The notes under the pieces are model-generated. The model was not told where the DNA came from. It was given only the letters and a program-made list of their open reading frames with translations, and did not search any database. From positions 1 to 22,966 of the IMG/VR virus record IMGVR_UViG_3300025293_000932: a stretch of 22,966 bases of DNA, one strand, 5' to 3'. Positions 1-16,168 of the stretch are shown here, in pieces (the first letter of the stretch is position 1; the number at the start of each line of letters is the position of its first letter). The stretch comes from a virus. Both the position numbers and the translations under genes were made by a program.

Positions 1-1
1 G

Positions 2-619: not shown

Positions 620-679
620 TGCTTTGGGTTATCGCTTTACGAAAGATGGCTGCACTGCGGAAAAAGCTATTGCATTAAG

Positions 680-693
680 ACCTAAGTTTAGGT
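680..693. promoter_or_regulatory. Perfect 14-bp palindrome in the terL-portal gap
   Basis: ACCTAA (680-685), two bases, then TTAGGT (688-693) form a perfect inverted repeat in the 98-110 base gap before the portal gene. The two-base centre is too tight for an RNA hairpin, so a dimeric protein site is the more natural reading. No clear -35/-10 pair is seen beside it. A chance palindrome is possible. Confidence 0.25.
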
Positions 694-729
694 GTAGACT
701 GTCACAAACCATGCTATATGAGGATGGAA

Positions 730-2592
730 ATGCCTTTAGATCCGACTGAAAAGCCAACTGCTGAAACGATCAAACGGGAACTCCAGCATTATCAGGAAAT
801 CTGGGGTGAAGCCCTTGATGTTATGAAGAAGGCAGATTCGTTCTACTGGAACCGGCACAATATATGGACATGGTTTGAAACACTTGGAAATCCTATTCCT
901 GATGCCGTTGCAAAGCGTTCCCAGTATCATTCGGGAAGAGCGCACGCTATTATCAAGCACGCTGTTGACGCGAACCTGGCGATCATGCCGAAATGGCATC
1001 GTGAAGCCGGCAGTATTTCGCAGTCGCACAAGGAAGCGGCAGACCGGGTTGAGAAAGGGCTTTCTGCTGCGGTGAGGGATGCTTTTCTTGTAGCGTTCTC
1101 GCATCCTCCAAAGGTAACCGGAAAGGACCTGCTCCTTCATAACTATGCGGTGATTTATGTAGGACTCGATGCAGAGTCACTGACAAAGAGACCGGAAAGA
1201 AAGCGCGGAGAAAACCGTGAAGACTTTGAAGAGCGTGAGTACCTCTGGGAAACACAGCGTTCAGGATGGAACCCGTTTAGGATTGAAGCAATAACTCCGG
1301 GCGATGTCCTCATGGAGCCGGGAATCAAGGTTCCCAAGAGCGCCATACGCCGGCGTAAGATCAGGGCATATGAACTCGCAGACCTGACAACAACGAAAGC
1401 CAAGGTGCTGGGAGATGTAGTCAAAATCTACGATATTGTGGGCGATCCCTATGAGGAGATCGAGGTTGAGGAGCGCTGGAGCCAGTATCATTATGCTATT
1501 TCAAGGAGCGGAAGCGAACTCCTGTGGGTTGAGGATAATACCTGGGGATTTCAGCCGTTCATGCACACGTGGGGTGGCGATGCATCGCTTCCTGTAGGAG
1601 AAACATTTAACCCAAAGTGGCTTATCGAGCAGAGTGTCCTGCATAACGCAATGGACACGGTAGTCATGTATGAGCAGTCGGTGGCAGCAAACCACCAGCT
1701 TATCCAGCGTACCGCATTTGCCAAGTTGGGCTATGTCGGGGATGCCGCAGAGGCTGCACAGCAGCTTGAGGGAGATATCATTTCCGGAGACCAGAGCCAG
1801 TGGTGGGCTGAAGTCGTACCGCAACTGGCCCCGCAGTCCATGCAGCACGTTTCGATGCTTAAAGACGCTATCGAGGAGATAACGTATTCCCTTGCGATGG
1901 CGGGATTTGCCCAGACTGGCGTTGATACGGCTACACAGGCTCTGATACAGAGCGAAGCCGGAAGCCGGAAGTCTATGGCAATCCGGAACCAGATGGAATA
2001 TCTCTATTCAATTGCGGGATCGAATATCCTGCGGCTTGTTGTCCGGATGAATGAGGAGTATCCCGATATAGAAGGACTCATTATCGGAAAGGATAAGCTA
2101 CGTGTTACTGATATTGGGAATAACTTCAGGGTACAGGCCAGTTTTGAACAGGTTGACCCTGTTGTCTTTGCACAGGAAAAGCAGGATGCACGTGAGGAAC
2201 TACGGCTCAGGCTGATTGACCGGATGACGTATCACCGGATTGCACGCCATGAGGATGCAACAGGTATCGAGAAGGGGATTATCAAGGACATTATCCGAGA
2301 GATGCCTGATGTACAGAACGAACTCCTGCAACTGGCACTGAGGGAAGAAGGGTTCGGAAATCTGGCAGATCAGCGCCAGCGTGAAGAAAGACTAAGGGCT
2401 ATGGTTGGTGCTGACGGGCAGACCCCGCTCTTCCCCGGAGGCCCGGGAGCCCCTGAAGGCGCTCCTGAAGGCCCACCACCCGGAGGGATTCCGGGAGGAC
2501 CACCTGGTGGGATTCCGGCACAATCACCCGTTCCGGTAGGGCCGGGAGTCCCTGGTATGCCACCGGCACAGGGTATGGAGGGTATGGTCTAA
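730..2592 (+). CDS. Portal protein (probable)
   Basis: The portal forms the dodecameric ring at the capsid vertex through which DNA enters and leaves and on which the terminase docks. The call rests on position (straight after terminase, upstream of scaffold and capsid), on length (620 residues, typical for portals) and on overall character. It has a helical N-terminal part, a central mixed alpha/beta part with ITPGDVLMEPGI and a Trp-rich stretch, then long helices around residues 300-420. The last ~50 residues are a Pro/Gly-rich tail with repeated GGIP, probably disordered. In-frame ATGs occur at 718, 724 and 730. Only the one at 730 has a properly spaced Shine-Dalgarno (GAGG at 720-723, 6 nt away), so I prefer it; starting at 718 would add four residues. 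Its stop overlaps the next ATG by one base. Confidence 0.72.
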   Translation: MPLDPTEKPTAETIKRELQHYQEIWGEALDVMKKADSFYWNRHNIWTWFETLGNPIPDAVAKRSQYHSGRAHAIIKHAVDANLAIMPKWHREAGSISQSHKEAADRVEKGLSAAVRDAFLVAFSHPPKVTGKDLLLHNYAVIYVGLDAESLTKRPERKRGENREDFEEREYLWETQRSGWNPFRIEAITPGDVLMEPGIKVPKSAIRRRKIRAYELADLTTTKAKVLGDVVKIYDIVGDPYEEIEVEERWSQYHYAISRSGSELLWVEDNTWGFQPFMHTWGGDASLPVGETFNPKWLIEQSVLHNAMDTVVMYEQSVAANHQLIQRTAFAKLGYVGDAAEAAQQLEGDIISGDQSQWWAEVVPQLAPQSMQHVSMLKDAIEEITYSLAMAGFAQTGVDTATQALIQSEAGSRKSMAIRNQMEYLYSIAGSNILRLVVRMNEEYPDIEGLIIGKDKLRVTDIGNNFRVQASFEQVDPVVFAQEKQDAREELRLRLIDRMTYHRIARHEDATGIEKGIIKDIIREMPDVQNELLQLALREEGFGNLADQRQREERLRAMVGADGQTPLFPGGPGAPEGAPEGPPPGGIPGGPPGGIPAQSPVPVGPGVPGMPPAQGMEGMV

Positions 2593-2840
2593 TGGCAAAC
2601 AGAAGTATTTATACAGAAGCTGCGCTGGAACTTGCAGCGGAACACTTACAGATGCGGAGAGAATCGCAGAAGATGGCGAAAGACGTCATACCTTTTGGCG
2701 AAGAGAAAGTAAGTAAGGCCAAGCTCCAGAGAATGCTTGCAGATAATCCTACCTTGCGGAAAACAATGCTCCAGAACCCTGCAACAAGGGAACGAGTCAT
2801 TGATATGTACCGCAGGAAGGGAGCAAACGATGCCGTTTGA
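2592..2840 (+). CDS. Small helical protein of unknown function
   Basis: An 82-residue charged protein, predicted by eye to be almost wholly helical: an N-terminal amphipathic stretch rich in Glu/Ala/Leu, then KAKLQRMLADNPTLRKTMLQ and a basic C-terminus. Its ATG overlaps the portal TAA by one base, so it is translationally coupled, and its own end overlaps the next gene by 11 bases. I do not recognise a family. Between portal and a large ejected-type protein it could be a head-completion or chaperone factor, but this is inferred from place only. Confidence 0.75.
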   Translation: MANRSIYTEAALELAAEHLQMRRESQKMAKDVIPFGEEKVSKAKLQRMLADNPTLRKTMLQNPATRERVIDMYRRKGANDAV

Positions 2841-4563
2841 TGGCCAGCTCAGAAGAGAAAACGGTAGATGGGAATACTATATTGCCAGCCCTGATGAAAG
2901 TGGGGAAATCATAGGATGGATTGCCATTTCGGATTTGCCGGGAATTGGTATTGCTGTTAGTCGTGAATTAATAGAAAAAATGCAGGATTTTCAATCCGTT
3001 TCCGGTGGTCAGGGAATGCAGACCCTCACGGATTGGGATAACAAACCGTGGGATTGGCCAACCTTAGTAGGGGCCTCTCAAGAAGATCCGCGTGCCGGGA
3101 GTATCGATCAGCGTTATGAGGTTCTTTTTGCTGGGCCGGAAGGAACATCGCTTACCGTTGACGCATTAGCTAAGGCTGCTGCTGCTGCTACTACTAACCG
3201 AGGCTTTCGCGAAGAGGATAAACCTGAATGGTGGGAAGCGGTAAAACCTATGTCTGGGCCGTGGACTGAACTCGGCAAAATTGATGGGGAGTTTGATCAA
3301 TTTACTGCTACCACTGAATTGAAAAATGCTTGGGATATGTACCAAACACTCTACCCAGAAGAAGCATCAGAAGCAAAAGGACCGGCTAGTGCTAATGCCT
3401 ATTTGAATCAGCAAATGGCTACTGCATATCAAGACTATGATAATGCTATAGCAGCCGGAGATCAGGAAGAGGCTGATAGGCTTTATGCAAAAATCTATAG
3501 ACTGCAAATGGAGAAACAACAACTTGCTCGTATAGGAGAGACTGAAGAAGCGCCTCAAGCAGCCCCCAGAATGACACTTGATCAGGCTATCGATGATGCG
3601 ATCCTGTCCGGTGATACAGCCAGGGCATCAGAACTGATTGCAGCCAGAGACAGATCTGAGGCCGGTAGCGGAATGACGAGAAGTCAGGCAATACAATATG
3701 CGGCTCAGTTTGCACAAACATCAGATGAATTTGACAGGATGCTTGCTGCAATAACACAGCAATACCAGCCACAACAACCTGCCGGGCCAACCCCAGAGCA
3801 ACTACGACAACAGCGCTTGGCTGATATTAGACAGTATATTCAGCCAGCACCCTTCCCAGGTGGGCCACCAGGAACCGGTATTCCTACGCCACCACTTACC
3901 GCTACTGGACAGGTAGCTACACAGCAAATCATTCCACCCCCACTTCCAATCCAAGACGATCCCTTTGCAACAGGAACTGCTACCACTGAACCGGTTCGAC
4001 AAGGGGTAGTCCCGGGAGAACCCTTTATTTCTACTCCTGAAGAGGTTACAGAAGATCCCTCGTTAGGTTTCTATGCTTCAGGACAACCCTTCGATCCCAA
4101 ATTAGCGAGAACGAGAGATATACAACTTTCTCCCGGAGGTGTTCCTATTATTCCTGTACCTGCGGGAACTAAATTCGCAGAAGGAACGGCTGGGTTTGCT
4201 GGAACTTATGATCTCAGTGGTATGCCGAAGTCACAGAATCAGCTTGCTATCGATGCTGAACTTAAACGGCTTAAAGAGATACAGGCACTGCATACTTCAG
4301 AATCCGGTACAGGCTATACCAGCCTCTATGGAGGCAAAATAGATCCTGTGATGGAAGCAGAACACAACAAGCTGCTCCAGAACCAATGGGACAGGGATAA
4401 CCCAAGGCTTGTAGCGCAGCGACAACAACAACAGACCGGCGCACCACGTTTTGGAAGCGGGAAACCGTTTGAGCAGACTCTTATGAATATAAAACAGGGC
4501 AGAACGCAGCGTAAATTAAGTTCGCAAAAGGCAGGACGAACATTTAAATTCGGCTTGTCATAG
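2830..4563 (+). CDS. Gln/Pro-rich probable virion protein, unknown function
   Basis: 577 residues starting at ATG 2830, chosen because AGGAAGGGAG lies 8 nt upstream; an in-frame ATG at 2737 would overlap the previous gene by about 100 bases. The first ~60 residues look like a small beta domain (NGRWEYYIASPDESGEIIGW). After this come a poly-Ala/Thr run, helical segments with Asp-Gln repeats (about residues 190-320), and a long Pro/Gln/Gly-rich, probably disordered region (about 310-440) containing PGGPPGTGIPTP. That motif resembles the portal tail and the linkers of the next gene. The C-terminus is basic. No enzymatic motif is seen. By eye the first part of the gene is richer in A/T than the portal gene. 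It lies 8 bases before the giant gene and probably works with it, perhaps as an ejection or internal head protein. Confidence 0.75.
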   Translation: MPFDGQLRRENGRWEYYIASPDESGEIIGWIAISDLPGIGIAVSRELIEKMQDFQSVSGGQGMQTLTDWDNKPWDWPTLVGASQEDPRAGSIDQRYEVLFAGPEGTSLTVDALAKAAAAATTNRGFREEDKPEWWEAVKPMSGPWTELGKIDGEFDQFTATTELKNAWDMYQTLYPEEASEAKGPASANAYLNQQMATAYQDYDNAIAAGDQEEADRLYAKIYRLQMEKQQLARIGETEEAPQAAPRMTLDQAIDDAILSGDTARASELIAARDRSEAGSGMTRSQAIQYAAQFAQTSDEFDRMLAAITQQYQPQQPAGPTPEQLRQQRLADIRQYIQPAPFPGGPPGTGIPTPPLTATGQVATQQIIPPPLPIQDDPFATGTATTEPVRQGVVPGEPFISTPEEVTEDPSLGFYASGQPFDPKLARTRDIQLSPGGVPIIPVPAGTKFAEGTAGFAGTYDLSGMPKSQNQLAIDAELKRLKEIQALHTSESGTGYTSLYGGKIDPVMEAEHNKLLQNQWDRDNPRLVAQRQQQQTGAPRFGSGKPFEQTLMNIKQGRTQRKLSSQKAGRTFKFGLS

Positions 4564-4571
4564 GGAGAAGC

Positions 4572-7500
4572 ATGGCTAACGGGAGAGATACAGTCCCCAT
4601 TCAGACCCCTGAGTATCTGCGGTTGAGGGCGCTTGCTGCACAAAAGAAAAAACAGGCGCAACAAATCCCCGGTCCTTTTGGGGGTGTAGCTGAACGCCGT
4701 TACCAGATGATCCCCCCAAAGTATCTTGAGCGCATGAGTCCAAGACAACGGGAAGAAGCAAGAAAGCGTCTTGAGGAGAATGAGCGTAGACGCGCAGAGA
4801 TACTTGCTCAACAGGGTGGGGTCTATCCACCACAACAACAACCCGGATTTATTCCGCGAATGATACAGAAGACAATACCGCCAGCGATTGAAAGATTTCA
4901 TCGGTATGCGGGGAGACCGTTAGGGGCGATAGGAACCGCGCTTACAGCCCCCTATGGAACAGCAGTAGTAGGAACCGGAGCGCCTGCTATGGGCGTAACT
5001 ACGCCATCAATACCTGTCCTGCCTGATCAGAAAGTACTTGAGAAGATCTTAGAAGACTATGGAGGAGAAATCCCTCTTCCTAAAACTGCGGAAGCATTTC
5101 GTAGTGCAATTGCTGCTATCCAGACAGAAAAAGGGCTTGACTGGGATGCTGCTGTGAGTGCATTTACAGATGCACATGATGTGCCGGAAGGATATGTTGG
5201 AGCAATGGAAGGTTTGCTTTCCCTTTTTATTCCACCTGGTGCTTTTGGCCCTCTTGCTGGAATAACCAGAGGAACTGTTAAAGCTGGTGTTGGTGGCCTT
5301 ACGAAGATCGCTCCACCTACTGCCAGAGTATTGGGTGCAGGGCTTAAGGCTCCGGCATACATGGCAATGGGAACGGGTGGCGTTGGCGGCCCTCGTATGC
5401 CTAGATTCGGGCCTGGAAGAGAAGTTATTTCTCCTCCAACACCACGAGGTGATGACGATGCCATAAGAGCGCTTAAAGGAATGGTTAAGCCAGAAGGCGT
5501 AAACCAACGTATGTATGACGAACTAGTTGAGTATGCTCCCACATTGTCTGATGCACAATTAGACGAAACTATAAGTGCTTCAGAAAAGATGATAAGAGGA
5601 CTAAAGAGACAACCTGGTGCGGCAACTGATCCTCGGAAGGCTATAGCAATCCATGAACTGGGGATCAGAATAGCTAAAGCTGAAAAAGCCAGAAGGGTTG
5701 CAGCACCCACCGCAGCAATCCCCACGCCCGGTGCAATGGCCGTTGACGAGATGATACAGGACGGCAATAAGCTGGCCAAATGGATGCAGAGGACTGGAAG
5801 GCAACGTGGATTGCTTAGTGGGAAAGCGTTCAACATAGAAGAACTCAACATGGTCCGACGGGGTGTTCGTGCAGAGAAAACCGGCAAGGGTGTCGGGATT
5901 AAAGATCGGAAAAGTGTATTCGACGCACCTATTGGGATCCCTCTGACTCCCGATGAGGCCCGTATCCTTGGTGCAGATTATCATGTATTTAGAGAATGGG
6001 CGAGTAAAGCAGGACTGAGAAATACAGACCCTCAATATGTCAGTGATGCTCTTTGGCTTGCCGAGGCGAAAAGAATTGGCCTTAATGCAGAAGAGTTGAT
6101 ACGGAAATATCCCGACTCATTCCCAACAAGGAAAGCCACACCCCCCGTCACGCCCGTTGCTAGGGCTGGTATGCAAGCTCCCACCCACGCACAGTTACAG
6201 GATGCTATCTCTGCTATGCCAGAGAATGAGTTAAATGAAGTGATAGCCTTAGTGGCTGATGACGTATTTGAGATTATTGGTTCTGGGTCGGGAAAGGCAC
6301 AGCGATGGGGGGTTTACTATAAGGCAAAATACGGCGACGAGGGCGTTCCGAGAGGGTTAAGGTTCCTTGGTTCCACAACGGCACGTTTTGGCGGCGATAA
6401 GACAAAGGCCGCTGCCGAATCGTTTGCCCGTGAGTTTGGTGTACGTAAGAAACTGAAGGAGGCTGTTTCGGAGCGAAATCCAAAAATTTTCGATGCTTTA
6501 ATCCGAACAGGCAGGTTTGATGTCCCCACACCCCCCGTCACGCCCGTTGCTAGGGCTATTGTTCCTGACGACCCTAACAGGTATGGCATACGTCCGAATG
6601 ACCCTGAATATCCGCCGTTACGCCAACCTAATGGCGCACCAGTACGAGGCACACCGATTTCACCAGATGATGCCAGAATCCCAGATGAAGTCTATCACGT
6701 AACGACTAATGCTCCTGCCGTGAGGTCAACGGGGCTGTTGAGGGCTTCAGGAGAAGGTGGTCTTGGTGGAGATGAACTAGACGCAATAGTCTCATTTACT
6801 ACAGATAGGGGAATAGCTAACCAGCTTGCTGATGACTTTAGATTGGCATCTGAAATTGCCAATATGCCAGAGGACTCATTGGCTATTGGCGAAAGATTAC
6901 TAAGGCAAGCAACCGAAGAAGGATGGGGCGAATCTCCGGGCTTCAGCAGGCTTGTTGCACTTGCCAGAGAGGGCAAGCATAAAAGAATAGCAAAAGATTG
7001 GCTCGTTGATTACTTTGGGCAAAGAGCGGCAGCAACACAGAAAAGAAACCCAATACTTTTAGGTGATGCCGAGAAGTTCAGGGGTTGGAACCCTGCTAAT
7101 ATCGAAGTTATACCAGTCCCAAAAACGTCTTTGCGTACCGGGGCAATGGTTACTGATTTTGACGACGCTTTTGGGATCGACGAATTTGGCATAGGACTTA
7201 AAGAGATTCGTGTCTACGGGGATGTGCCTGTCACCCCCACCAAAGCAATCCCCACGCCCACTGCTAGGGCTGCTGCACCTGTCGATACAATGGTCAATGA
7301 TATAGCAAACAGGTTAGGCCATCAGGTAAAGAGAAATCCTCTTAATAATAGAGAATGGGTATTCACTGATGAGGCTGGGGAACTTACGATCAAAGCTGAA
7401 CTTGCTCCATCTTTAGGAGATCCAAATAGAATACGGCTTGTCTCTATGGCATCTCCATCGAAAGGTCTAGGAAATGCAAGCAGGTGGATGGATGAACTTG

Positions 7501-10500
7501 TAAGTGTTGCTGATGAAAATAATATTGCACTTGAATTAAGTGCCGTGCCTTTTGGAAGAGCAAGTGGAGGGCTAACTAAGCGGCAACTTAAAGCATTTTA
7601 CACAAAGCGTGGATTTAAGTTTGAGCAGGGATCAGACAGTGGAGTAAGAGGGGCTAGGGGTCAGACATTAGACCCTTCCGTTACCACTACAGGAAGATTT
7701 CGATTGACCTTTGGGGACGAAGCTATAGCAGCGGAACAGGGAATCCCCACGCCCGGTGCTGCAATAGCAAAAGAGCCTTGGCAGATGACTAAGGCAGAGT
7801 TTAATGCTGCCCGTGTAACGAAGCAGCAGATGTTAGACCGTGGCGCGGAAGGAAATCTTAATAGTGCCGTAGAAATACAAATGCCTATCAGTCGCATAGA
7901 GGGGCTAGAGCCTATTCCAGCAATGGAAGGCGGTTATGTGCCTGGGAGGCTAATAACACAACCAGTTGAGATTAGGTATGAAAAAGACCTAGACCAATTT
8001 ATTTTGTATGCGGGGAATCATCGAGTCCAACAAGCTAGAATCAATGGACAGAGTACAGTTCCTGCATTTGTAGAGGGCATTAAGTATGAAGACTTGAAGC
8101 AAGCAATCCCCACGCCCACTGCTGCAAAAACTGTGAAAAAGATACCGGCTAAAAAACAGGCAAAGTCATCTGATGCACCTTCTTCTGTTAAAGAGGAATT
8201 ACCTGAACGATTTGTAAAACCAAATAATCCTGTAGTCACTGAAACACCGCCGCCAAAGGCAGCGCAAGGGCCGCCAGAGCCTATGGATGACGGGAACTTC
8301 AACAGGAATAATTTCGGAGGGGATGGGCCGCCACCCAAAACGACCGCAGAACCCCCAACCGGACCGGACGATATAGTTCTTGACCTGACGGACACTAAAG
8401 AACTGGAAGAACTTATTTTCACTGACGATTATTTCCGGAAAATCATACAGTTACCGGGAATGCGTCAAACCTTGGGACATTCCAATCCCGCTGGTGCAGC
8501 TCGTACTCCTATGGAGAAATTTGCTGCGCTGCGTACGTGGTTGATGAACGAGTCAACAGAGCGAACTATCAGGGCAATGGGTCATATCGATAGGCACGCT
8601 GAGGACACGTTATTTGGGCCGTTCACTAAAGAGCGTCTGATCAAGAAAGGCCCGCTTAAAGGACTAGGTCTTAACGATATCCGGACATACCCGAAACGGT
8701 ATGCGAAAAAACTTACTCCGGAACAGACTGAATGGATAAAGCAGATGGACGAGATTGAAAGAAGCAAACTGGCTTCTCTAGAGCGTAATGAGGTAGAAGT
8801 CAACCTGCTGGGATTTGAAGAAGGTGGCCAGTATGCTGGACGCCGATGGATGGGTAAGTTCGATAATGACGGGAAGTTGATAGATATCGGATATGTTGGT
8901 GGGGGTAGCCGTAGGAAATTGCCGCCATTTCTTGAACCTCGGGTGCTTAAATCTCAGTCTGAGGGTTTCAAGTTAGGATTTCAGGCTATGAGTGAAACAG
9001 AAGCCTTGGCTCTCAATGTTCAGGGTCATTACACGCATATCATCGATAAGAAGATGTATGACTGGCTTATATATCACTCAGGGATAGGTTATAGAGATGT
9101 TGGAATCTCTGAAGGAATGAAGCTGGCTGATGCGGCTGTAAAGATGAAAGCGGCAGCAGGTAAAAAGGCCATTCTGGCTCTTCAGCGTGCCATGAGAGGC
9201 GAAACGATCCCAACAGGAACCGTCAAGTCTATTGAACGGGTATTCCCCCAGCTTAAAGGGAAGGTCAGAGCGCCAACAAAAGTCTTGGCACAGGACGTCA
9301 TTAAGGCTGCGAAAGAACTGCAAAAGCCTAATGTTGTTCTTGAAGTTCCAAAGATAGGGGCAATTAAGAAAGTCCAGAAACTATTAGAGGAAGCCTCAGA
9401 GCGGCTTAGTCAAAACCCAGCCGATAAGGCTCTCAGACGCGAGGTATCGAGACTGCAAAAAAGTCTTGGCTTTATCCGCTACCGGGTAGGTCTAGGAAAG
9501 CCACTGGAACTCATCCGAGTTCCGGCAAAGGAACTGCGGAAGATGGCTGTTGATTCGCTACAGGAAATGCTTGACGCAATCAGGGGTACACCTACCAAAG
9601 TCGAGGGATATAAAACACTACAATACAGAGGCGGATTACTCAGTGATCTCCTCGTAGAACAAAAAAAGACAAGCAAATCTATAGCCGATTATAAGAAAAA
9701 GTGGGGAGAGCCGGGGCGTGAAGAAGCATACCTCCAAATTCCCGGAGGAGAGAGAAGAATTCTGACTGGGCCTGACGCAAAGACGATAGCAATACGCATG
9801 AACAATATATTCACCCCAGCGGAAAACAAGTTCTACAACATTCTTGCGTTTGCTAATAAGTTCAATGTTCTTTTCCGAGGGCTTCAGTTAACGGCAGACG
9901 GTGGAGTTGGACTGATCCATCTTGCAATACTTGCTGGTGCAGAACCCAAAATATGGACAAAAGCGATGTGGGCTTTCCATAATGAATTGATCCGCTCTGC
10001 TGCCAGTAAGTCAGTCACAAACAGGATATATAAGCAACACGCGGCTCTTCTGAACAGATGGCCTATTGTGCAGTTATCCGAACAGGGTACAGAGGCAACA
10101 GCGGCATTCGCAAGAGGACAGCTCTTAAAAGCAAGGTTGCCTGCCGGTATTCCCCTGATAGGCGGCAGACAGGTACTGGCGTTACCAGATAAATTACTTC
10201 AGCCGTTCAGGAATGCGTTTAACTTTGCTATGGACCAAGCAGCAATTGACCTGATTAAAGCCCTTGAGCATCTGGCAACAACTCCTAGATTGAAGGCAGA
10301 AATTTCACGGTACATAAATAACGTCCGAGGTCTAGGCTCATCTAAGCAGATCGGCGTAGGTAAATGGATGCGTTTAGCCGAACAAAGCGTAATGCTTGCG
10401 CCTAACTATAACCGTTCAATAGTGGCTATTTTTTCCTCTCTTTTCAGGGGTGGAATGGATGCCAAGTTAGCCCGTCAAGCATTAATGCGTGCAACATTTG

Positions 10501-11990
10501 CGTTCATGTTCGTTACCGTTGCCATTGGTCTGGCGCGTGGCGATACACTCAGAGAATCTCTTGATCGCTTCAAGCTTATGAGAAAAGACCCAAAAACCGG
10601 GGAATTAAAATATAACTCTGAATTTATGCTGTTTGATCAGTGGGGGCAAAGAATAGGTGCTGGGTCAAAAATTCGTTCAGTGCTTGCATTGTTAGCCACA
10701 GTGACAACATCCCCAGAGGATCTGCTGGAATCCGGAATGAGAAACCCCGCGTTCCGATTTATGCGGGCTAACCTCGCTCCGCTTCCTTCCAAGGCAACTG
10801 ACCTTATCAGTGGCCGCAATTACATAGGAGACCCAACCAGAGATGGGATGGTCAGCCTGTCAAGGGAAGTTATTGCGCCTACTTTCCTGCCGTTATGGGC
10901 ATCCTCATTGGCACTTGAGGGCGGAGACCTTAAAGGACGGTTTTCACGCGGAACCGCAGATTACTTTGCCTTGAGAGCATACCCACAAGACGCACATCAT
11001 AAGTTTGTTGCGTATGCGGAAGAGCAAACGGGGAAGTCCTACGACGGGCCATCTGAAGGTTGGCTATCCGCACCACCGTACTACTGGTCATGGGGCAAGA
11101 TGGAGTGGATAAAAGAAGAGAAGGAAAAGATCACGCCGTTAGAATTGAAGAAGCTTAAAACTATTGATCCGGAAGGAAGCCGCCTCTGGGAAGCTGCGGA
11201 GCTGGACTGGGCGAGGCGCGATAAAATAAGCCCGGTTATGAGGGAATTTGACAGGGTTGCAGATATCCGAATGGATAAGCTTCAGGACGCTGCGGATGAA
11301 GCAAGAAGAACAGGTAATACTCCCGGATTGAGAGAGGCTATTGTTAAAATCAATTCAGCGTATGGAGCGCAGTTACAGGCCGTACAGAGTAATCCTGAAT
11401 TTGAAAAGGCACTCGATGAGCTTTCAAAAATTCATAAAAACGAGATACCGGAACAAGAGGCAAAACGCCTGTACAACGAAATTGTTAACGATCCTGCGCT
11501 GTTAAATGAATTGCAAGAATATGATTTTGACGAGCGAAACCGCAGGTTAGACCTTCTTGAAAAAGAGGTTGGCGAGGAAATCTGGAACGGCATTCTTGCA
11601 GAAAAGCAACTAGACAGGCAGAGATTCGATCCGCTGGTTCAGCTATGGTATGAGGATAAGGAAAAACTTAAATCGTACTGGGCGTTGCCAGAGGGTGAAC
11701 GGCGCAGGAATGAGCGCAGGAGAAACAAGGGAGCAATCGATGTAATTATGATCCGGTGGTACGGGCTGAAGCCGGGACTGTCAAAGGCAGGGTTTGACGA
11801 ATATCGGCGTATTCAGTCCGGGAAGGCTCCCGAGGCTTCTGGGGCTGCAACAACACTTTTAGATCTTGTAAGGCAACAGCAAGGACAGCCCATGCCAGCG
11901 CCAACACCTGAGCCTACGCCGGGTACAACACTTTTAGACCTTGTAAGACAGCAGCAACAAGAAAGAGAACCTGTAGGAGCGAGGGAATAA
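4572..11990 (+). CDS. Giant modular 'polyvalent' ejected protein (2472 residues)
   Basis: The start at ATG 4572 has GGAGAAG just upstream. Residues 1-380 hold a Lys/Arg/Gln-rich N-terminus and a Gly-rich hydrophobic stretch near 208-270 that could insert in a membrane. Residues 381-1184 are five modules set apart by six Pro-rich linkers of the AIPTP/TPPVTPVARA type: two unassigned (389-521, 533-651), one ADP-ribosyltransferase-like (663-883), one GNAT-like (903-1056) and one ParB/sulfiredoxin-like (1064-1177). A Lys/Pro-rich hinge leads into about 1250 helical residues with a hydrophobic segment at 1974-1989 and an RNYIGDP motif, reminiscent of the C-terminal regions of large polyvalent proteins known from phages and conjugative elements. 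Such proteins are usually carried in the capsid and enter the cell with DNA. The C-terminus carries TTLLDLVRQQQ twice. Catalytic activity of any module is inference. Lying between portal and scaffold is an unusual place for so large a gene. Confidence 0.85.
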   Translation: MANGRDTVPIQTPEYLRLRALAAQKKKQAQQIPGPFGGVAERRYQMIPPKYLERMSPRQREEARKRLEENERRRAEILAQQGGVYPPQQQPGFIPRMIQKTIPPAIERFHRYAGRPLGAIGTALTAPYGTAVVGTGAPAMGVTTPSIPVLPDQKVLEKILEDYGGEIPLPKTAEAFRSAIAAIQTEKGLDWDAAVSAFTDAHDVPEGYVGAMEGLLSLFIPPGAFGPLAGITRGTVKAGVGGLTKIAPPTARVLGAGLKAPAYMAMGTGGVGGPRMPRFGPGREVISPPTPRGDDDAIRALKGMVKPEGVNQRMYDELVEYAPTLSDAQLDETISASEKMIRGLKRQPGAATDPRKAIAIHELGIRIAKAEKARRVAAPTAAIPTPGAMAVDEMIQDGNKLAKWMQRTGRQRGLLSGKAFNIEELNMVRRGVRAEKTGKGVGIKDRKSVFDAPIGIPLTPDEARILGADYHVFREWASKAGLRNTDPQYVSDALWLAEAKRIGLNAEELIRKYPDSFPTRKATPPVTPVARAGMQAPTHAQLQDAISAMPENELNEVIALVADDVFEIIGSGSGKAQRWGVYYKAKYGDEGVPRGLRFLGSTTARFGGDKTKAAAESFAREFGVRKKLKEAVSERNPKIFDALIRTGRFDVPTPPVTPVARAIVPDDPNRYGIRPNDPEYPPLRQPNGAPVRGTPISPDDARIPDEVYHVTTNAPAVRSTGLLRASGEGGLGGDELDAIVSFTTDRGIANQLADDFRLASEIANMPEDSLAIGERLLRQATEEGWGESPGFSRLVALAREGKHKRIAKDWLVDYFGQRAAATQKRNPILLGDAEKFRGWNPANIEVIPVPKTSLRTGAMVTDFDDAFGIDEFGIGLKEIRVYGDVPVTPTKAIPTPTARAAAPVDTMVNDIANRLGHQVKRNPLNNREWVFTDEAGELTIKAELAPSLGDPNRIRLVSMASPSKGLGNASRWMDELVSVADENNIALELSAVPFGRASGGLTKRQLKAFYTKRGFKFEQGSDSGVRGARGQTLDPSVTTTGRFRLTFGDEAIAAEQGIPTPGAAIAKEPWQMTKAEFNAARVTKQQMLDRGAEGNLNSAVEIQMPISRIEGLEPIPAMEGGYVPGRLITQPVEIRYEKDLDQFILYAGNHRVQQARINGQSTVPAFVEGIKYEDLKQAIPTPTAAKTVKKIPAKKQAKSSDAPSSVKEELPERFVKPNNPVVTETPPPKAAQGPPEPMDDGNFNRNNFGGDGPPPKTTAEPPTGPDDIVLDLTDTKELEELIFTDDYFRKIIQLPGMRQTLGHSNPAGAARTPMEKFAALRTWLMNESTERTIRAMGHIDRHAEDTLFGPFTKERLIKKGPLKGLGLNDIRTYPKRYAKKLTPEQTEWIKQMDEIERSKLASLERNEVEVNLLGFEEGGQYAGRRWMGKFDNDGKLIDIGYVGGGSRRKLPPFLEPRVLKSQSEGFKLGFQAMSETEALALNVQGHYTHIIDKKMYDWLIYHSGIGYRDVGISEGMKLADAAVKMKAAAGKKAILALQRAMRGETIPTGTVKSIERVFPQLKGKVRAPTKVLAQDVIKAAKELQKPNVVLEVPKIGAIKKVQKLLEEASERLSQNPADKALRREVSRLQKSLGFIRYRVGLGKPLELIRVPAKELRKMAVDSLQEMLDAIRGTPTKVEGYKTLQYRGGLLSDLLVEQKKTSKSIADYKKKWGEPGREEAYLQIPGGERRILTGPDAKTIAIRMNNIFTPAENKFYNILAFANKFNVLFRGLQLTADGGVGLIHLAILAGAEPKIWTKAMWAFHNELIRSAASKSVTNRIYKQHAALLNRWPIVQLSEQGTEATAAFARGQLLKARLPAGIPLIGGRQVLALPDKLLQPFRNAFNFAMDQAAIDLIKALEHLATTPRLKAEISRYINNVRGLGSSKQIGVGKWMRLAEQSVMLAPNYNRSIVAIFSSLFRGGMDAKLARQALMRATFAFMFVTVAIGLARGDTLRESLDRFKLMRKDPKTGELKYNSEFMLFDQWGQRIGAGSKIRSVLALLATVTTSPEDLLESGMRNPAFRFMRANLAPLPSKATDLISGRNYIGDPTRDGMVSLSREVIAPTFLPLWASSLALEGGDLKGRFSRGTADYFALRAYPQDAHHKFVAYAEEQTGKSYDGPSEGWLSAPPYYWSWGKMEWIKEEKEKITPLELKKLKTIDPEGSRLWEAAELDWARRDKISPVMREFDRVADIRMDKLQDAADEARRTGNTPGLREAIVKINSAYGAQLQAVQSNPEFEKALDELSKIHKNEIPEQEAKRLYNEIVNDPALLNELQEYDFDERNRRLDLLEKEVGEEIWNGILAEKQLDRQRFDPLVQLWYEDKEKLKSYWALPEGERRRNERRRNKGAIDVIMIRWYGLKPGLSKAGFDEYRRIQSGKAPEASGAATTLLDLVRQQQGQPMPAPTPEPTPGTTLLDLVRQQQQEREPVGARE
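5715..5734 (+). repeat. Linker repeat 1 in the giant gene
   Basis: First copy of the linker DNA family. It holds the core aatccccacgccc, encodes AIPTPGA, and opens the first module. The same core recurs at 7245, 7741 and 8103, always in the same reading frame and always at a module edge. Confidence 0.85.
6136..6167 (+). repeat. Linker repeat 2: first copy of a perfect 32-bp direct repeat
   Basis: These 32 bases recur without a mismatch at 6526-6557, exactly 390 bases (130 codons) downstream, so the frame is preserved. They encode TPPVTPVARA. Together the two copies bracket one module like a cassette; recombination between them would remove or swap it without a frameshift. Confidence 0.95.
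6526..6557 (+). repeat. Linker repeat 3: second copy of the perfect 32-bp direct repeat
   Basis: Identical to 6136-6167. It closes the unassigned module (residues 533-651) and opens the ADP-ribosyltransferase-like module. The neighbouring bases on both sides differ between the copies, so the identity is confined to the linker. Confidence 0.95.
6558..7220 (+). other. Candidate ADP-ribosyltransferase-like module inside the giant protein
   Basis: Residues about 663-883. The pattern is EVYHVTT (Tyr708-His709), a GLLRASGEGGLGG turn, VSFTTD (741-745) and, near the end, KEIRVYG with Glu878. This order (His on strand one, a Ser/Thr-Phe-Thr strand, a late Glu before a beta strand) resembles the H-Y-E type ADP-ribosyltransferase / Tpt1 fold. 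The alternatives are an inactive ART relative or another beta-rich domain. The call is by eye and needs a profile or structure search. Confidence 0.45.
7226..7275 (+). repeat. Linker repeat 4 (composite of both linker types)
   Basis: This linker joins both DNA motifs: a 'gtcacccccacc' piece like the 32-bp repeat, then the aatccccacgccc core (from 7247), then 'tgctagggct' shared with the 32-bp repeat. It encodes VPVTPTKAIPTPTARA and sits between the ART-like and GNAT-like modules. Confidence 0.85.
7278..7740 (+). other. Candidate GNAT acetyltransferase-like module inside the giant protein
   Basis: Residues about 903-1056. SPSKGLGNASRWMDEL (Gly965-Leu-Gly967) resembles the acetyl-CoA pyrophosphate loop and following helix of GNAT enzymes. 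NNIALELSAVPFG fits the next strand. LKAFYTKRGFKF (Tyr1010, Gly1014-Phe1015) is the classic last GNAT motif. The usual Arg/Gln at the first position of the loop is not present, so activity is uncertain. Confidence 0.5.
7740..7760 (+). repeat. Linker repeat 5 in the giant gene
   Basis: Carries the aatccccacgccc core followed by ggtgct as in linker 1, and encodes GIPTPGAA. It divides the GNAT-like from the ParB/sulfiredoxin-like module. Confidence 0.85.
7764..8102 (+). other. Candidate ParB/sulfiredoxin-like module inside the giant protein
   Basis: Residues about 1065-1177. The diagnostic part is FILYAGNHRVQQARINGQ, with Gly1148-Asn-His-Arg1151, followed by STVPAFVEG. Families with the ParB N-terminal / sulfiredoxin-like fold have a Gly-Asn/Glu-His-Arg motif at this place, then a helix and a short strand with 'vP'. 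Relatives include nucleases and nucleotide-hydrolysing or phosphotransfer enzymes. A preceding QPVEIRYEKD strand fits. Substrate unknown. Confidence 0.55.
8103..8123 (+). repeat. Linker repeat 6 in the giant gene
   Basis: Carries the aatccccacgccc core followed by actgct as in linker 4, and encodes AIPTPTA. It closes the modular part; a Lys-rich and Pro-rich hinge follows to about base 8390. Confidence 0.85.
11850..11957 (+). repeat. Duplicated C-terminal peptide motif, two 33-base copies
   Basis: Copies at 11850-11882 and 11925-11957 encode the same 11 residues, TTLLDLVRQQQ, separated by a Pro-rich spacer at the extreme end of the giant protein. The copies differ at three bases and all three are silent (GAT/GAC, AGG/AGA, CAA/CAG), which points to selection on the peptide. 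A short helical docking or packaging signal is a reasonable guess. Confidence 0.9.
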
Positions 11991-12172
11991 TGTGTGCAAG
12001 AGGAAACGGTACAATTTGTTATGACGCGCTAGGAATTCTGAGAGCTGATTTGGGTCAACGCGCCCTCTCAAACAGGGTGTTACGCGCTCAGATCAAGACG
12101 CACTATGACGGTATTTGCCCTGTTCAATACGTGAAAACGGTTGACAAAGCAAAAAAGGTAGCGGTAAAGTGA
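11990..12172 (+). CDS. 60-residue protein of unknown function
   Basis: The ATG overlaps the stop of the giant gene by one base and has GAGGGAA upstream, so it is probably translated by coupling. The protein is small and basic with three Cys (two in the first ten residues, one in DGICPV) and a Lys-rich end. I do not recognise a family. Its last 30 bases also hold a promoter-like sequence (12141-12170) for the RNA element that follows, so part of its 3' sequence may be shaped by two roles. It could be a small virion or regulatory protein; a non-coding reading of this stretch cannot be excluded. Confidence 0.6.
   Translation: MCARGNGTICYDALGILRADLGQRALSNRVLRAQIKTHYDGICPVQYVKTVDKAKKVAVK
12141..12170 (+). 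promoter_or_regulatory. Putative sigma-70-type promoter
   Basis: A perfect -35 TTGACA (12141-12146), an 18-base spacer and a -10 TAAAGT (12165-12170, 4 of 6 consensus). The expected start is near 12176-12177, which is where the hairpin of the following RNA element begins. The site overlaps the 3' end of the 60-residue gene. Confidence 0.5.
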
Positions 12173-12176
12173 CAGT

Positions 12177-12249
12177 GACCGCGCAGGGACAAGAGTCTCA
12201 AGGTGCTTGCGGTCAGCGCCCATGAGTCTGAGGACTCGTGGGTTTTTTT
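12177..12249 (+). ncRNA. Candidate small structured RNA or conditional terminator leader
   Basis: About 73 bases with no gene, from the predicted start of the promoter above to a T-run. First comes a long stem: TGACCGC (12176-12182) pairs with GCGGTCA (12209-12215), then GCA with TGC, then GGGAC (12186-12190) with GTCTC (12195-12199) around a four-base AAGA loop, with AAGG bulged at 12200-12203. A strong terminator hairpin follows. GAGTCT occurs both in the first stem (12193-12198) and in the 5' arm of the terminator (12224-12229), so the first copy could pair with the terminator's 3' arm instead and prevent termination. It is either an independent small RNA or a regulated leader of the scaffold-capsid operon. 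It matches no RNA family I recognise. Confidence 0.45.
12219..12249 (+). terminator. Strong intrinsic (rho-independent) terminator
   Basis: CCCATGAGTC (12219-12228) pairs with GACTCGTGGG (12233-12242) in a 10-bp stem with one T-G wobble and a TGAG loop, followed at once by seven T (12243-12249). It lies 45 bases before the scaffold start, so it would separate the giant-gene transcript from the capsid genes unless it is read through or antiterminated. Confidence 0.85.
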
Positions 12250-12294
12250 ATGTATTCGGCGGTTCCCGAATGGGCCGTTCCGGAAGGAGTAAAA

Positions 12295-13083
12295 ATGGTA
12301 GAGCAGGAGATACAGACGCTGCCAGAGCCAAGCGAGGCGGCTGATCCGGTAGAACAACTGGAAGCCACGCCTGAAGAAGCTCAAACAATTGATGGTGAGA
12401 AGGACTGGAAGGTAGAGGCAGAGCAACTACGGGGCCGGGCTGAAAAAGCTGAAAATGATTTAAAAGCCCAACGCAACCAGCGGCAGTCCCTGACTCAACA
12501 GATGCAACAGGCGGTAGCACCGATCATGGAGCGTCTGGAGGCCAGTGAAAAAGCCAATGAGCGTATCCTGAGAGCTTTAGCCAGCGGTGACACGGATCAG
12601 GTCTCCCAAGAACTTGAGGAGATCGGAGAGGAACGAGCCAGAACTACCGAGTTGGACCAGCGGTTCCAGGGCCAGTATGACGGGCTCTACAGGGAACTGA
12701 TGCAAATTCAGGAGGACATTTCGGACGATCAGGGGAATCCAGTTTTCGATATACAGACTGCTCCTGAGATGACCGAGGTGAGAAACGAATGGAATGAAGC
12801 ATACTCCAACCGAGATGTAGCACAACTCGCAATCCTTTTGAGCCGCGCACAACGCATTGCTTTTCAACTTCAGCGTAAAAATACTACTGAGCAGGTAAAA
12901 CGGGCAGACGATGACAGAAAAGAAAATAATGCCCGGAATAACACGCTTGGTGTAGGAGCCCAGACCGGAACATCATCGGCAAGTATGTCAGATGACGCAC
13001 GGTGGGCAGCATTTGGGAGGGGAGAACTCCCCTGGAATGATGAAGTAAAAAGGGCCGGGAAAAGACTCGGCTACTCTGTATAG
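12295..13083 (+). CDS. Capsid scaffold protein (probable)
   Basis: 262 residues. The start at ATG 12295 is chosen for GGAAGGAG at 12282-12289; an in-frame ATG at 12238 would fall within the terminator hairpin. The composition is typical of a scaffold: acidic, disordered N-terminus rich in Glu/Pro (EQEIQTLPEPSE), a long coiled coil (about residues 40-130), further charged helices, and a short basic C-terminus ending in KRAGKRLGYSV, the kind of helix-turn that binds capsid protein. It immediately precedes the capsid gene. No protease motif is seen, so it is not a fused protease-scaffold. It assists assembly of the procapsid and then leaves or is degraded. Confidence 0.75.
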   Translation: MVEQEIQTLPEPSEAADPVEQLEATPEEAQTIDGEKDWKVEAEQLRGRAEKAENDLKAQRNQRQSLTQQMQQAVAPIMERLEASEKANERILRALASGDTDQVSQELEEIGEERARTTELDQRFQGQYDGLYRELMQIQEDISDDQGNPVFDIQTAPEMTEVRNEWNEAYSNRDVAQLAILLSRAQRIAFQLQRKNTTEQVKRADDDRKENNARNNTLGVGAQTGTSSASMSDDARWAAFGRGELPWNDEVKRAGKRLGYSV

Positions 13084-13096
13084 AAGGAGATAAGTA

Positions 13097-13969
13097 ATGG
13101 CAGACGGCAATACCACTACACTGGTTCTTACCGAAAGTCTTGATATCGTGGCAGCTTCTGCCCGATCCAGGCGAGAATATGACGGTGCTGTGCCACAGCT
13201 TGTAGACAGGGTTGATCTCAGTCCAAGCACCGGCACGTCATGGCGGGAAATTTTGTTTGAGCAATTGAGCGCTCAGTCAATAACAGAGACAACAGTTCTC
13301 AATAACCCACAACAGTACGATGACTCAGCTATTTCTATTACGCCGCAGATGGTCCAGATCCAGACCTTTGTGAGTGACAAGACACGGCGTAACCTTGCCC
13401 GAGCAGCCCTTGCCCAGATGGGTAAGCAAGCTGGAGAGGCAATGATGCGGAAGCGGGATGAAGATGGCCTCACGGCCCTCGATGGTTCCACCACTCAGCT
13501 TGGAACGGCCAACACGCCGGTTCAGACTGGTGATGTGGCAGCAGCTCGTTACCGGATCTCATCGAATGCCACAGAGCCCGGGAATCCTCCTTATGCGGGA
13601 GTCTTCCACGGTTTCTGCATCAAAGACTTCTATGACGAGTTGGTATCCGGGGTTGGGACATACCCAGTACCGGAAGGCTCGACAGCTACAGTCTTTATGT
13701 CTGCGTTCAATTTACCAATTGCCAGTGTAACCATTGTTGAAGATGGCAACATCGCTATTGACAGCGCTGGTGACGCAAAGAACTTTGTCTTTGCGAAGGA
13801 AGCATGGGTACTGGTAAACGGCATGTCACTCAGGACTGAAACCCGAAGAGAGCCACATATCGCAGGTGGTGGTGACTCTCTCTTCCTGACTGACGAATAC
13901 GCCTACGGCGAAAGATCAGCGGGTAACTGGAGTTTTGAGATTATCGGAGATGCCACGGCTCCTGCTTAG
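13097..13969 (+). CDS. Major capsid protein (probable, HK97-type fold)
   Basis: 290 residues with an AAGGAGA site 6 nt before the ATG. It forms the icosahedral shell. The evidence is position straight after the scaffold, a length normal for a compact HK97-fold capsid protein, and sequence character: an N-terminal arm, then a helix with RNLARAALAQMGKQAGEAMM in the place of the long spine helix, a Gly/Pro/Thr-rich middle, a hydrophobic VFMSAFNLPIASVTIVEDG segment, and a beta-rich C-terminus with FLTDEYAYGERS. Codon use is even and the ribosome site is strong, as expected for the most abundant virion protein. No N-terminal cleavage site is evident. Confidence 0.78.
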   Translation: MADGNTTTLVLTESLDIVAASARSRREYDGAVPQLVDRVDLSPSTGTSWREILFEQLSAQSITETTVLNNPQQYDDSAISITPQMVQIQTFVSDKTRRNLARAALAQMGKQAGEAMMRKRDEDGLTALDGSTTQLGTANTPVQTGDVAAARYRISSNATEPGNPPYAGVFHGFCIKDFYDELVSGVGTYPVPEGSTATVFMSAFNLPIASVTIVEDGNIAIDSAGDAKNFVFAKEAWVLVNGMSLRTETRREPHIAGGGDSLFLTDEYAYGERSAGNWSFEIIGDATAPA

Positions 13970-13982
13970 TAATTAGTGGCGC

Positions 13983-14025
13983 ACGCTGCAAACGTAGTGA
14001 AACCCTCACATGAGAGCGGCAGCGT
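13983..14025 (+). promoter_or_regulatory. Two-tiered hairpin between capsid gene and next gene
   Basis: ACGCTGC (13983-13989) pairs perfectly with GCAGCGT (14019-14025), and inside it GTGA (13997-14000) pairs with TCAC (14006-14009). No T-run follows, so this is not a standard terminator. It could stabilise the capsid mRNA, be an RNA processing site, or slow the polymerase. Confidence 0.4.
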
Positions 14026-14052
14026 AAAAATAAATGATAAAGGAGACCAGAA

Positions 14053-14724
14053 ATGGGACCAGAGGGATATGTAACTTTATGGGAAGACTTTCTTACAGAC
14101 AACGTAACAAACTTTGTTGAAACCGTTGCAAGTAGTGGAGCGCAGGATATTCACGGCGCTCATGGTGGTTGGTGGGGACAGGTAGTAGGAGCCAACGATA
14201 ACGATGCGGCGGCTATAGCTGGTGAAGTAGTCTGGGAAGTAGACGAGGGGCAAGCACTCACGTTTGAAACCCGGCTTCAGATCGATGATGTGTCTGAAGC
14301 CTCAGTTTTTGTTGGCATGAGCGATGCAAACAATGACGCTGTTGTCATTGAGAACGAGGACGATGCACTTGTTGCCACTGCAACTGATTGTTTCGGTGTA
14401 TTGCTGGAAGGTGAACAGGACCTGACCTTTACTGCTGTAGGGGTTCAGAATGGCGGGACTGCTGAAGAGGACGCTTTGACCGGTGCTGTAGACGCGGCAG
14501 ATGGCATAACCCGGGTTATCCGGATGGTTGCAACAACTGCTGACTCAGGCACAGTACGGTATTACATTGGGACAGCTAATGAATACGGTGGCGGGACTCA
14601 CGTTGCTACGAAAACATCGTGGTATCGATCAGGCATCCTGTACACGCCGATTCTTTCGCTTGACGCTCGGGGTACTGCGGTTAATTCAGACTATGACTAC
14701 ATTTACGTGAGCGCACCGAGGTAA
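14053..14724 (+). CDS. Beta-rich capsid decoration or fibre-like protein
   Basis: 223 residues with AGGAG 7 nt before the ATG. The protein is acidic, Gly/Thr/Val-rich and apparently all-beta. Alternating strands such as QALTFETRLQIDDV, SVFVGMSD, GTVRYYIGTANE and LYTPILSLDARG, ending in a DYDYIYV strand, resemble a concanavalin/laminin-G-like jelly roll as found in many phage head-decoration and adhesion proteins. It has only one Cys and no signal peptide. Its place just after the capsid gene suggests a decoration protein sitting on the shell; a minor fibre is the alternative. No catalytic motif is seen. Confidence 0.65.
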   Translation: MGPEGYVTLWEDFLTDNVTNFVETVASSGAQDIHGAHGGWWGQVVGANDNDAAAIAGEVVWEVDEGQALTFETRLQIDDVSEASVFVGMSDANNDAVVIENEDDALVATATDCFGVLLEGEQDLTFTAVGVQNGGTAEEDALTGAVDAADGITRVIRMVATTADSGTVRYYIGTANEYGGGTHVATKTSWYRSGILYTPILSLDARGTAVNSDYDYIYVSAPR

Positions 14725-14727
14725 GCA

Positions 14728-14988
14728 ATGCGAGTACTGAAGACAACAAAACCTATATCTCCTGCATACCTGAAATCGGGCAAGGATAACTTTGCCTACG
14801 ATCAGGAGAAAAAGGTTTGGTTGCCCGGAAGAACAACGCCGGTTCGCCGGCCTGATCTCCGGTTGGTTCAAACAAATGGGAGCCAGCGTCATAGTCCTCC
14901 CCCCAAGCCTGTGACGCGGCGCCCAATCCTCTATGTAGCGCAACTTGAAAATGCGCGTCCTAGAGAGAAGATCAGGTTACAGCGGTGA
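14728..14988 (+). CDS. Small basic protein, unknown
   Basis: 86 residues, strongly basic, Pro-rich in the middle (SPPPKPVTRRP). GAGG at 14718-14721 gives a 6-nt spacing to the ATG and overlaps the end of the previous gene. The first 40 residues contain an AYDQEKKVWLPGRTTP motif; the rest looks extended. The stop overlaps the next GTG start by three bases. I do not recognise it. A minor virion or head-completion role is inferred from position only. Confidence 0.65.
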   Translation: MRVLKTTKPISPAYLKSGKDNFAYDQEKKVWLPGRTTPVRRPDLRLVQTNGSQRHSPPPKPVTRRPILYVAQLENARPREKIRLQR

Positions 14989-15440
14989 CGCTTCAACCTG
15001 CTGAAAAGGTCTGGAAGTTTAAGCCGGACCAGAGCCTTGCAGAGGCTATTACAAAGGCGGTGTTTAGTGATGAACCGTGCTATTACCTGGGGGAGTTTAA
15101 CCTTCTGCATGAAGGGAGATCTGGCAGGGTGCGGTTTCAGGTATTACGTGTGGTGCGGAATGACAAACTGGTAACAGCTTACGTGCCTCTGGGATCGGCG
15201 GGAGATTTTACCGCGAACCAGTTCCAGACATGGGGTGGCCAGGTTGTCGATGGGCGCGGAACAGCGTGGCATACGGTGGCAGAGTTAAGGGAGATGGCAG
15301 ACGAGATGCGGAGCCAAAAGCCATTGCAAATCGAACATACAGACTTACAACATGCATTTCGTAATCATGCCGAGGAGAAAAAGCGCTGGCCCAGAAGACA
15401 GTCTACGTTTGGCAGGAAAGGATCATTGGTGAGAACATGA
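14985..15440 (+). CDS. Unknown protein with beta-rich N-terminal half
   Basis: 151 residues read from a GTG at 14985 that overlaps the upstream TGA (GTGA junction), so it is probably coupled. The first 100 residues alternate strands (YYLGEFNLLHEGRSGRVRFQVLRVV) with a Gly-rich loop. A helix with AELREMADEMRSQ and a basic, Arg/Lys-rich tail follow. The next gene begins within its stop (ATGA). The tight coupling with both neighbours suggests the three are made in equal amounts. No family recognised. Confidence 0.65.
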   Translation: MTLQPAEKVWKFKPDQSLAEAITKAVFSDEPCYYLGEFNLLHEGRSGRVRFQVLRVVRNDKLVTAYVPLGSAGDFTANQFQTWGGQVVDGRGTAWHTVAELREMADEMRSQKPLQIEHTDLQHAFRNHAEEKKRWPRRQSTFGRKGSLVRT

Positions 15441-16168
15441 CGATCAAAGAAGCCCCGACAATGGACGAACTGACCGGTGGCGGTACAGGGATAGAGGTAG
15501 TTCCCCCTTCACATTTGAAGGTAGGAGACCAGCTTGTACGACCATCCGGCGGCGATCCATCAAGGGTAGAAGTGACCGATATGCGCTTCAAGGGCTATGT
15601 TCAGGTCTGGGACACACGCACTGGCGTGATGAGTCTCCAGCCGTGGTGGCTCTTGTGGCAGACCATGCGGAAACGGCGTGAAGATGGTTCACTTGTTTTT
15701 ACTCAGGAAGACCCTCAGATACCACAGAGGCACGGTGCAGATTTATACTGTCACCTAAACCCACTCTCTGACATGTATGGAAAGTTGGAGTCTCTGGGTT
15801 TTGCAACCTGTGTAAAGATGCATATTCCTCACCAGGATGGGTTGATGAGCCATATCCGGCATTCACACAAGCGGTTATGGGATTTCCTTCAGAACGAGAA
15901 GGAAGATGAACGGGACCGTAAGGCACAGGAAGAAAGAGAAAAGGATCGTGAGCTTCAACGTGAATTTATGAAGGTACTTATGGAAAGGGCGGTAGGATCG
16001 CCAAGTCAGGATAAGTTTCTTGAGGATATAAAGACCGCGTTGAATCTTGATACACCTCTCGCCAGTGTGCAGGAGCGGCCAAAGAGAGCCAAAAGGCCGA
16101 TGACTGAGGAAGTCAAGGCTCTCCTGAGAGAACAAAAACGCCTGAAGCGTGAGACCAAGACGCGCTAA
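15437..16168 (+). CDS. C2H2-like zinc-binding coiled-coil protein
   Basis: 243 residues. The N-terminal ~65 residues contain VPPSHLKVGDQLVRPSGGDP, a small beta-barrel-like part. Cys105, Cys125, His139 and His144 form a C-x19-C-x13-H-x4-H pattern, with GLMSHIRHSHKRLW like the helix of a C2H2 zinc finger but with a much wider Cys-Cys gap. His129, His132 and His142 are alternative ligands. A very charged coiled coil (about 152-185) and a basic tail follow. It starts inside the stop of the previous gene (ATGA). It could bind nucleic acid or simply use zinc to brace a small virion fold. The zinc call is by pattern only. Confidence 0.55.
   Translation: MTIKEAPTMDELTGGGTGIEVVPPSHLKVGDQLVRPSGGDPSRVEVTDMRFKGYVQVWDTRTGVMSLQPWWLLWQTMRKRREDGSLVFTQEDPQIPQRHGADLYCHLNPLSDMYGKLESLGFATCVKMHIPHQDGLMSHIRHSHKRLWDFLQNEKEDERDRKAQEEREKDRELQREFMKVLMERAVGSPSQDKFLEDIKTALNLDTPLASVQERPKRAKRPMTEEVKALLREQKRLKRETKTR

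Follow-up and report, generated by a model that had tools for sequence, protein, structure and literature searches.

The window analysed here, which is the whole 22,966-base record of an uncultured tailed phage, encodes a giant polyvalent protein, P0001 (2472 aa; positions 4572 to 11990, plus strand), that is probably a payload protein packaged in the head, its cargo having been swapped or converted through recombination at the DNA of its linkers. The gene is a single ATG frame with no internal stop that covers 32% of the window, close to the one third given in the original prediction, and a sister record (L001, 17,996 bases), 99.9% identical to window positions 1-16127, encodes a 2471-aa version of it. 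The most unusual feature of P0001, absent from the original prediction, is that the six linkers around its five modules are in-frame DNA repeats.

P0001 sits in the late virion gene cluster of a portal/terminase phage, with every gene on the plus strand. The window opens with the C-terminal part of the terminase large subunit gene (2-619; PHROG phrog_24361, E 3.8e-15; phrog_2, E 1.4e-8), which is complete in L001, followed by the gene of a 624-aa portal-like protein (718-2592). The latter was assigned by position and size; homologs were present in 6 of the 6 related records searched, and profile searches and solved structures gave no match. The giant gene does lie between the portal-like and scaffold-like genes, as predicted, but the portal-like gene is not adjacent, since an 82-aa ORF (2592-2840) and a gene encoding a 577-aa low complexity protein (2830-4563) intervene. 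On the 3' side of P0001 a 60-aa ORF sits ahead of the scaffold-like gene (12238-13083), which was recognized by its position and by a C-terminal YGRGE-type motif common to relatives. Next is the gene of the major capsid protein (13097-13969), which matched Pfam Phage_capsid_4 (PF25209) with an E value of 2.8e-5 and a score slightly below the cut-off; its homologs are annotated as capsid protein, and related capsids were collected from 33 contigs. The scaffold-like proteins are highly variable outside the C-terminal motif YGRGE..W/S..V..AGK.LG, which was seen in 7 of 10 aligned rows (the other three, from L012, L010 and L033, are different genes), and the capsids are about 75% identical. Further downstream, positions 16705-17739 encode a tail-fibre-like protein whose C-terminus resembles long tail fibre/spike proteins (phrog_5668, E 1.4e-20). 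No relative of the capsid protein or of module D of P0001 was found in genome contigs, and for this reason no host was assigned.

No part of full-length P0001 had a Pfam match, and neither the whole protein nor its modules had relatives among named phages (E 0.01 / E 1). The N-terminal region (residues 1-382; 4572-5717) had no family match, nor was it detectably similar to the N-termini of the relatives described below. Five modules follow. Modules A (residues 391-520; 5742-6131) and B (534-650; 6171-6521) gave no family match in Pfam and PHROG profile searches. Module C (663-886; 6558-7229) had no match in profile, named-phage or solved-structure searches and is possibly an ADP-ribosyltransferase (ART), a call made by eye from motifs that we take to be those of such enzymes. 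Judged by its sequence, module E (1067-1178; 7770-8105) is ParB-like: taken alone it matched phrog_3264 with an E value of 1.9e-5, and its matches to PF02195 ParB_N (E 0.061) and other ParB-type models were weak. The modules are not duplicates of one another, as no strong cross-match was found and only a 22-residue segment is common to A and C (E 0.001-0.002). NCBIfam and PADLOC returned nothing useful, and solved structures nothing convincing for C, D and E.

We assign module D (903-1057; 7278-7742) to the GNAT acetyltransferases with moderate confidence. It had no Pfam match and its PHROG match was to a family of unknown function (phrog_14082, E 1.6e-4), but a two-row profile searched against the PDB gave a GNAT protein as best match (E 0.084). 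In Foldseek, a check proposed in the original prediction, the top six matches were all acetyltransferases with E values no better than 0.075, and no match reached 0.001, whereas a second structural aligner (VIA) placed Crl and KA1 folds at the top of its list and acetyltransferases further down. The single-sequence model of the modules that these comparisons used has a mean pLDDT of 39, and its longest stretch of blocks above about 55 falls in module D; the AlphaFold models were consequently rejected as evidence of fold, for the modules as well as for the C-terminus (pLDDT 44). By tblastn against phages, the sole match of module D lay inside the virion RNA polymerase of Stenotrophomonas phage Pokken (two records of one phage), with an E value of 8 that is not significant alone; the same segment aligned to module D with E 2e-6 as a lone pairwise comparison with no correction for a search. 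The Pokken segment in turn matched five GNAT families, all below their cut-offs (best E 0.006), and it follows a Pro/Thr-rich linker in the polymerase (L059; NC_049463.1, 48760-49796). Plasmids yielded noise alone (E 5 or worse). The several enzyme-like modules predicted originally are thus one clear case (ParB-like), one likely (GNAT-like), one assigned by eye (ART-like) and two with no assignment.

The C-terminal region (residues 1252-2380; 8325-11711), common to relatives, is mostly helical as predicted, but in a low-confidence model with a mean pLDDT of 44. LPD38 was tried as a name for it and rejected, there being no Pfam match and an hhalign E value of 0.12 against the LPD38-bearing relative L031. 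Beyond it, the motif TTLLDLVRQQQ is present twice (11850-11882 and 11925-11957; span 11850-11957) and is, purely by analogy, a candidate packaging tag. No peptidase domain was found in P0001, no Pfam or PHROG model of a T7-type RNA polymerase matched it, and neither did the DdrB-ParB model (PF18763), which matches the relative L012.

The six linker repeats are located at 5718-5741 (IPTPGAMA), 6144-6167 (PVTPVARA), 6534-6557 (PVTPVARA), 7248-7271 (IPTPTARA), 7743-7766 (IPTPGAAI, which is IPTPTAIA in L001) and 8106-8129 (IPTPTAAK), all on the plus strand. Linkers 2 and 3 are identical over 32 of 32 nucleotides in the window (6136-6167 and 6526-6557), and ATCCCCACGCCC is common to four of the six. 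The 24-nt cores, set by hand after the repeats had been seen and ahead of the shuffle tests, have a mean pairwise identity of 0.69, and their flanks are at the background level of 0.26-0.33. At linker sites encoding the same residue the codons match in 64 of 72 comparisons, against a mean of 19.5 and a maximum of 39 when synonymous codons were shuffled over the gene (n=2000). Repeated 4-codon pairs in frame number 20 in P0001, where shuffling gave 0.9 on average and at most 4; 19 of them fall in the linkers and one in the duplicated C-terminal motif. The same test was run identically on 16 genes, including nine large relatives: L005, L010 and L031 had no such pair and L006, L012, L019, L026, L028 and L030 had one to four. 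L028 alone exceeded its shuffle maximum (four pairs, in a local tandem repeat); in L012 the word PTRTT stands twice between modules, which is not above the shuffle maximum of that gene, and in the eight other relatives comparable repeats separating modules were not seen. Among the relatives tested, the strong linker repeat is therefore confined to this virus and L001. That the linkers move between viruses as a cassette was also considered and rejected, since no other viral contig carried their DNA in that form. A first linker pattern hit nine stretches in viral contigs, one of them the sister record; most of the other eight lie in a single conserved gene that is unrelated, and one lies in a 1948-aa frame, likewise unrelated; a second pattern hit a single stretch, again the sister record. 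The 1948-aa frame, from another virus (L057:5409-11252), has the linker word IPTPSA in common with P0001, probably by chance, and appears to be a further large phage protein with several domains.

The comparison with L001 bears on how the linkers have changed. Over 16.1 kb the two records differ by 17 events, namely 16 substitutions and one 3-nt gap. Four of the 17 fall in linkers, a number reached by 11 of 50,000 random placements over the whole alignment and by 38 of 50,000 when placement was restricted to the gene. Eight of the 17 lie inside a 191-nt tract (7755-7945) that begins in a linker, where none of 20,000 random placements exceeded five; adjacent events are not independent, so these placement figures make the clustering look more significant than it is. 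In L001, two sites distinguish linkers 2 and 3, whose sequences are identical in the window. For linker 5 the window gives PTPGAAIA and the sister record PTPTAIA; both types occur among the other linkers. From this one pair of metagenome records we infer that the linker differences are the trace expected of recombination or conversion between linkers, and part of the difference could come from strain mixing in the metagenome or from assembly error.

A search with the capsid protein gave 24 related loci and the capsid alignment 33, counting the sister record; identity to the capsid of the window was 74-79% in the first alignment and 64%-81% over best segments in the 33-locus alignment, sister excluded. 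We counted the slot ahead of the scaffold gene only where a locus holds the entire frame, excluding loci cut inside the gene or starting after it. Eight distinct viruses besides the sister, with capsids 73-81% identical, qualified, and in the gene-order comparison called for in the original prediction a large protein of 937-2151 aa fills the slot in all eight: 1619 aa in L005, 1599 in L006 (= L027), 937 in L010, 2151 in L012, 1359 in L019, 1503 in L028 (near-identical L029), 1862 in L030 and 1232 in L031. Because the slot is kept across related contigs, packaging in the head is plausible. The slot proteins are hypervariable and far more divergent than the capsids. The C-terminus of P0001 is common to L019 (37%), L028, L007, L006, L012, L005/L026 and L030. 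A profile built from the C-termini of P0001, L019, L028 and L007 reached L006 (E 2.7e-24), L012 (2.5e-19), L005 (5e-4) and L009, L023 and L026 (8e-7 to 1.2e-4), with L010 and L030 marginal; profile-profile comparison added L030 (3.5e-7) and the L005/L026 pair (2.3e-11) and made no link to L010, L031 or L036. The homology of this C-terminal carrier begins at residue 296 in L019, about 316 in L028 and 1252 in P0001, leaving about 295, 315 and 1251 residues ahead of it, so that the first two proteins are without the five-module block of P0001. Residues 1-299 of L019 match residues 1-309 of L012. In place of the block, the L012 protein has a DdrB-ParB domain (PF18763, E 3.8e-24). The slot protein of L031 bears LPD38 (PF18857, E 7.8e-14) and has a C-terminus of another kind.

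Two observations concern genes next to the giant gene in relatives. In L010, the gene directly upstream (L010:619-4167) encodes a protein with five copies of the motif SxGM[LI][DN]P..V.S.E.AR..A, and the next best matches to a model of this motif among 1942 ORFs were N-termini of giant proteins (L012:1631-8086, E 2.4e-4; L030:2747-8335, 6.3e-4; L019:43-4122, 5.6e-3); it may be a peptide for docking or packaging that these proteins share. In L006, the gene ahead of the giant one (L006:1812-4274) carries near-perfect tandem repeats of the DLVGLDEML type, with 40 repeated 4-codon pairs against a shuffle mean of 1.

Three other explanations were weighed against a packaged payload protein with recombining linkers. 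P0001 might be an ordinary polyvalent or internal virion protein whose linkers are old Pro/Ala-rich spacers derived from short duplications, with no role in the exchange of modules. Such spacers would explain why most relatives with other cargo are without DNA-repeat linkers and why no foreign contig carries the linker cassette, but identity of the linkers at the codon level implies recent copying or ongoing homogenisation, and linker 5 is of one type in the window and of the other in L001; we regard this explanation as unlikely, though one to be taken seriously. That P0001 stays out of the virion, acting inside the cell as a late assembly factor or head chaperone encoded beside its partners, would agree with a gene adjoining the scaffold and capsid region. 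This seems improbable, given that close relatives have no module block and that the ParB-like and GNAT-like modules, like the DdrB-ParB and LPD38 domains of relatives, are described in PMC5512222 as typical of ejected proteins. Very improbable, finally, is a head-lining or tail-plug protein in which all modules are inert and structural. Such a protein would suit the lack of family matches for modules A and B and the helical C-terminus of the low-confidence model, but it is hard to square with a module E that has a ParB-like match and a module D that gives GNAT signals.

As a head-packaged payload protein, P0001 would be made late, be packed into the head and reach the host together with the DNA, as its family and gene context suggest. 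The helical C-terminal half (about residues 1252-2380) may be a conserved carrier for packaging or delivery, and residues about 383-1185 the payload of five modules, among them the ParB-like E, a probable acetyltransferase (D) and a possible ADP-ribosyltransferase (C); these would presumably act at entry on host defences or host machinery. The payload is exchangeable in evolution, three relatives having other cargo or no such block. The linkers would be short homologous DNA tracts at which recombination or gene conversion alters the linkers and the adjoining module ends, as the sister pair suggests. We put forward, more tentatively and as a possibility we would not yet lean on, that in this phage lineage the region between the portal and scaffold genes is a bay for payloads, made of one carrier and cassettes bounded by short homologous DNA linkers, where recombination could insert, remove or exchange effectors for ejection and keep the frame intact. 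If right, phages would have a direct and testable route to renew the proteins sent in with their DNA, by way of matched linkers between modules. Natural forms with other cargo or without the block in the same capsid lineage would make packaging signal, carrier and cargo separable, and the modules of P0001 are candidate counter-defence enzymes.

Among known systems, P0001 is closest in kind to the phage-type polyvalent proteins (Iyer et al. 2017, PMC5512222), including P1 DdrB/DarB, which are likewise large, multidomain, encoded among virion genes and provided with a ParB-type domain. That survey describes LPD38 and DdrB-ParB as phage-type only, and reports domain accretion, GNAT beside ART as a typical pairing, and a polyvalent protein of Helicobacter that is extensively mosaic. 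The GNAT-like module of P0001 adjoins the possible ART, and its relatives carry DdrB-ParB (L012) or LPD38 (L031), all of which is consistent with the polyvalent reading originally proposed; taken as a whole, the original interpretation has partial support. P0001 differs from the proteins described there in its DNA-repeat linkers, its slot between portal-like and scaffold genes, the absence of a detectable peptidase and a C-terminus outside Pfam. The Helicobacter prophage protein jhp1044 is similar in that its orthologs occur in many domain combinations, but the domains are others (PMC5512222). The words 'linker' and 'shuffl' are absent from the main text of that survey, and literature searches on polyvalent proteins, ejection, domain shuffling and phage module boundaries or linkers, largely outside subscription journals, found no description of repeat-bounded modules. 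The N4-like virion RNA polymerase has an N-terminal injection part, the enzyme in the middle and a C-terminal encapsidation part (PMC5512222). This tripartite plan of the Schitoviridae protein resembles the one proposed for P0001, and the Pokken version has its GNAT-like segment after a TP-rich linker. No RNA polymerase model of Pfam or PHROG matched P0001, and N4 has a different capsid and gene order. Distant homologs of the capsid occur in Pelagibacter phage HTVC112P (E 5e-6) and phage DSL-LC06 (E 1e-3), where the order of terminase, portal, scaffold and capsid is the same, but the slot is occupied by one hypothetical protein of 340 aa or by a pair of tiny ORFs instead of a giant protein, which makes the latter a trait of this group and not of the wider capsid lineage. 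The polyvalent class is thus already known, and what is new in P0001 is its location relative to portal and scaffold and its linker DNA. A payload bay of this sort, if it exists, would do for phages what cassette exchange does for polymorphic toxins.
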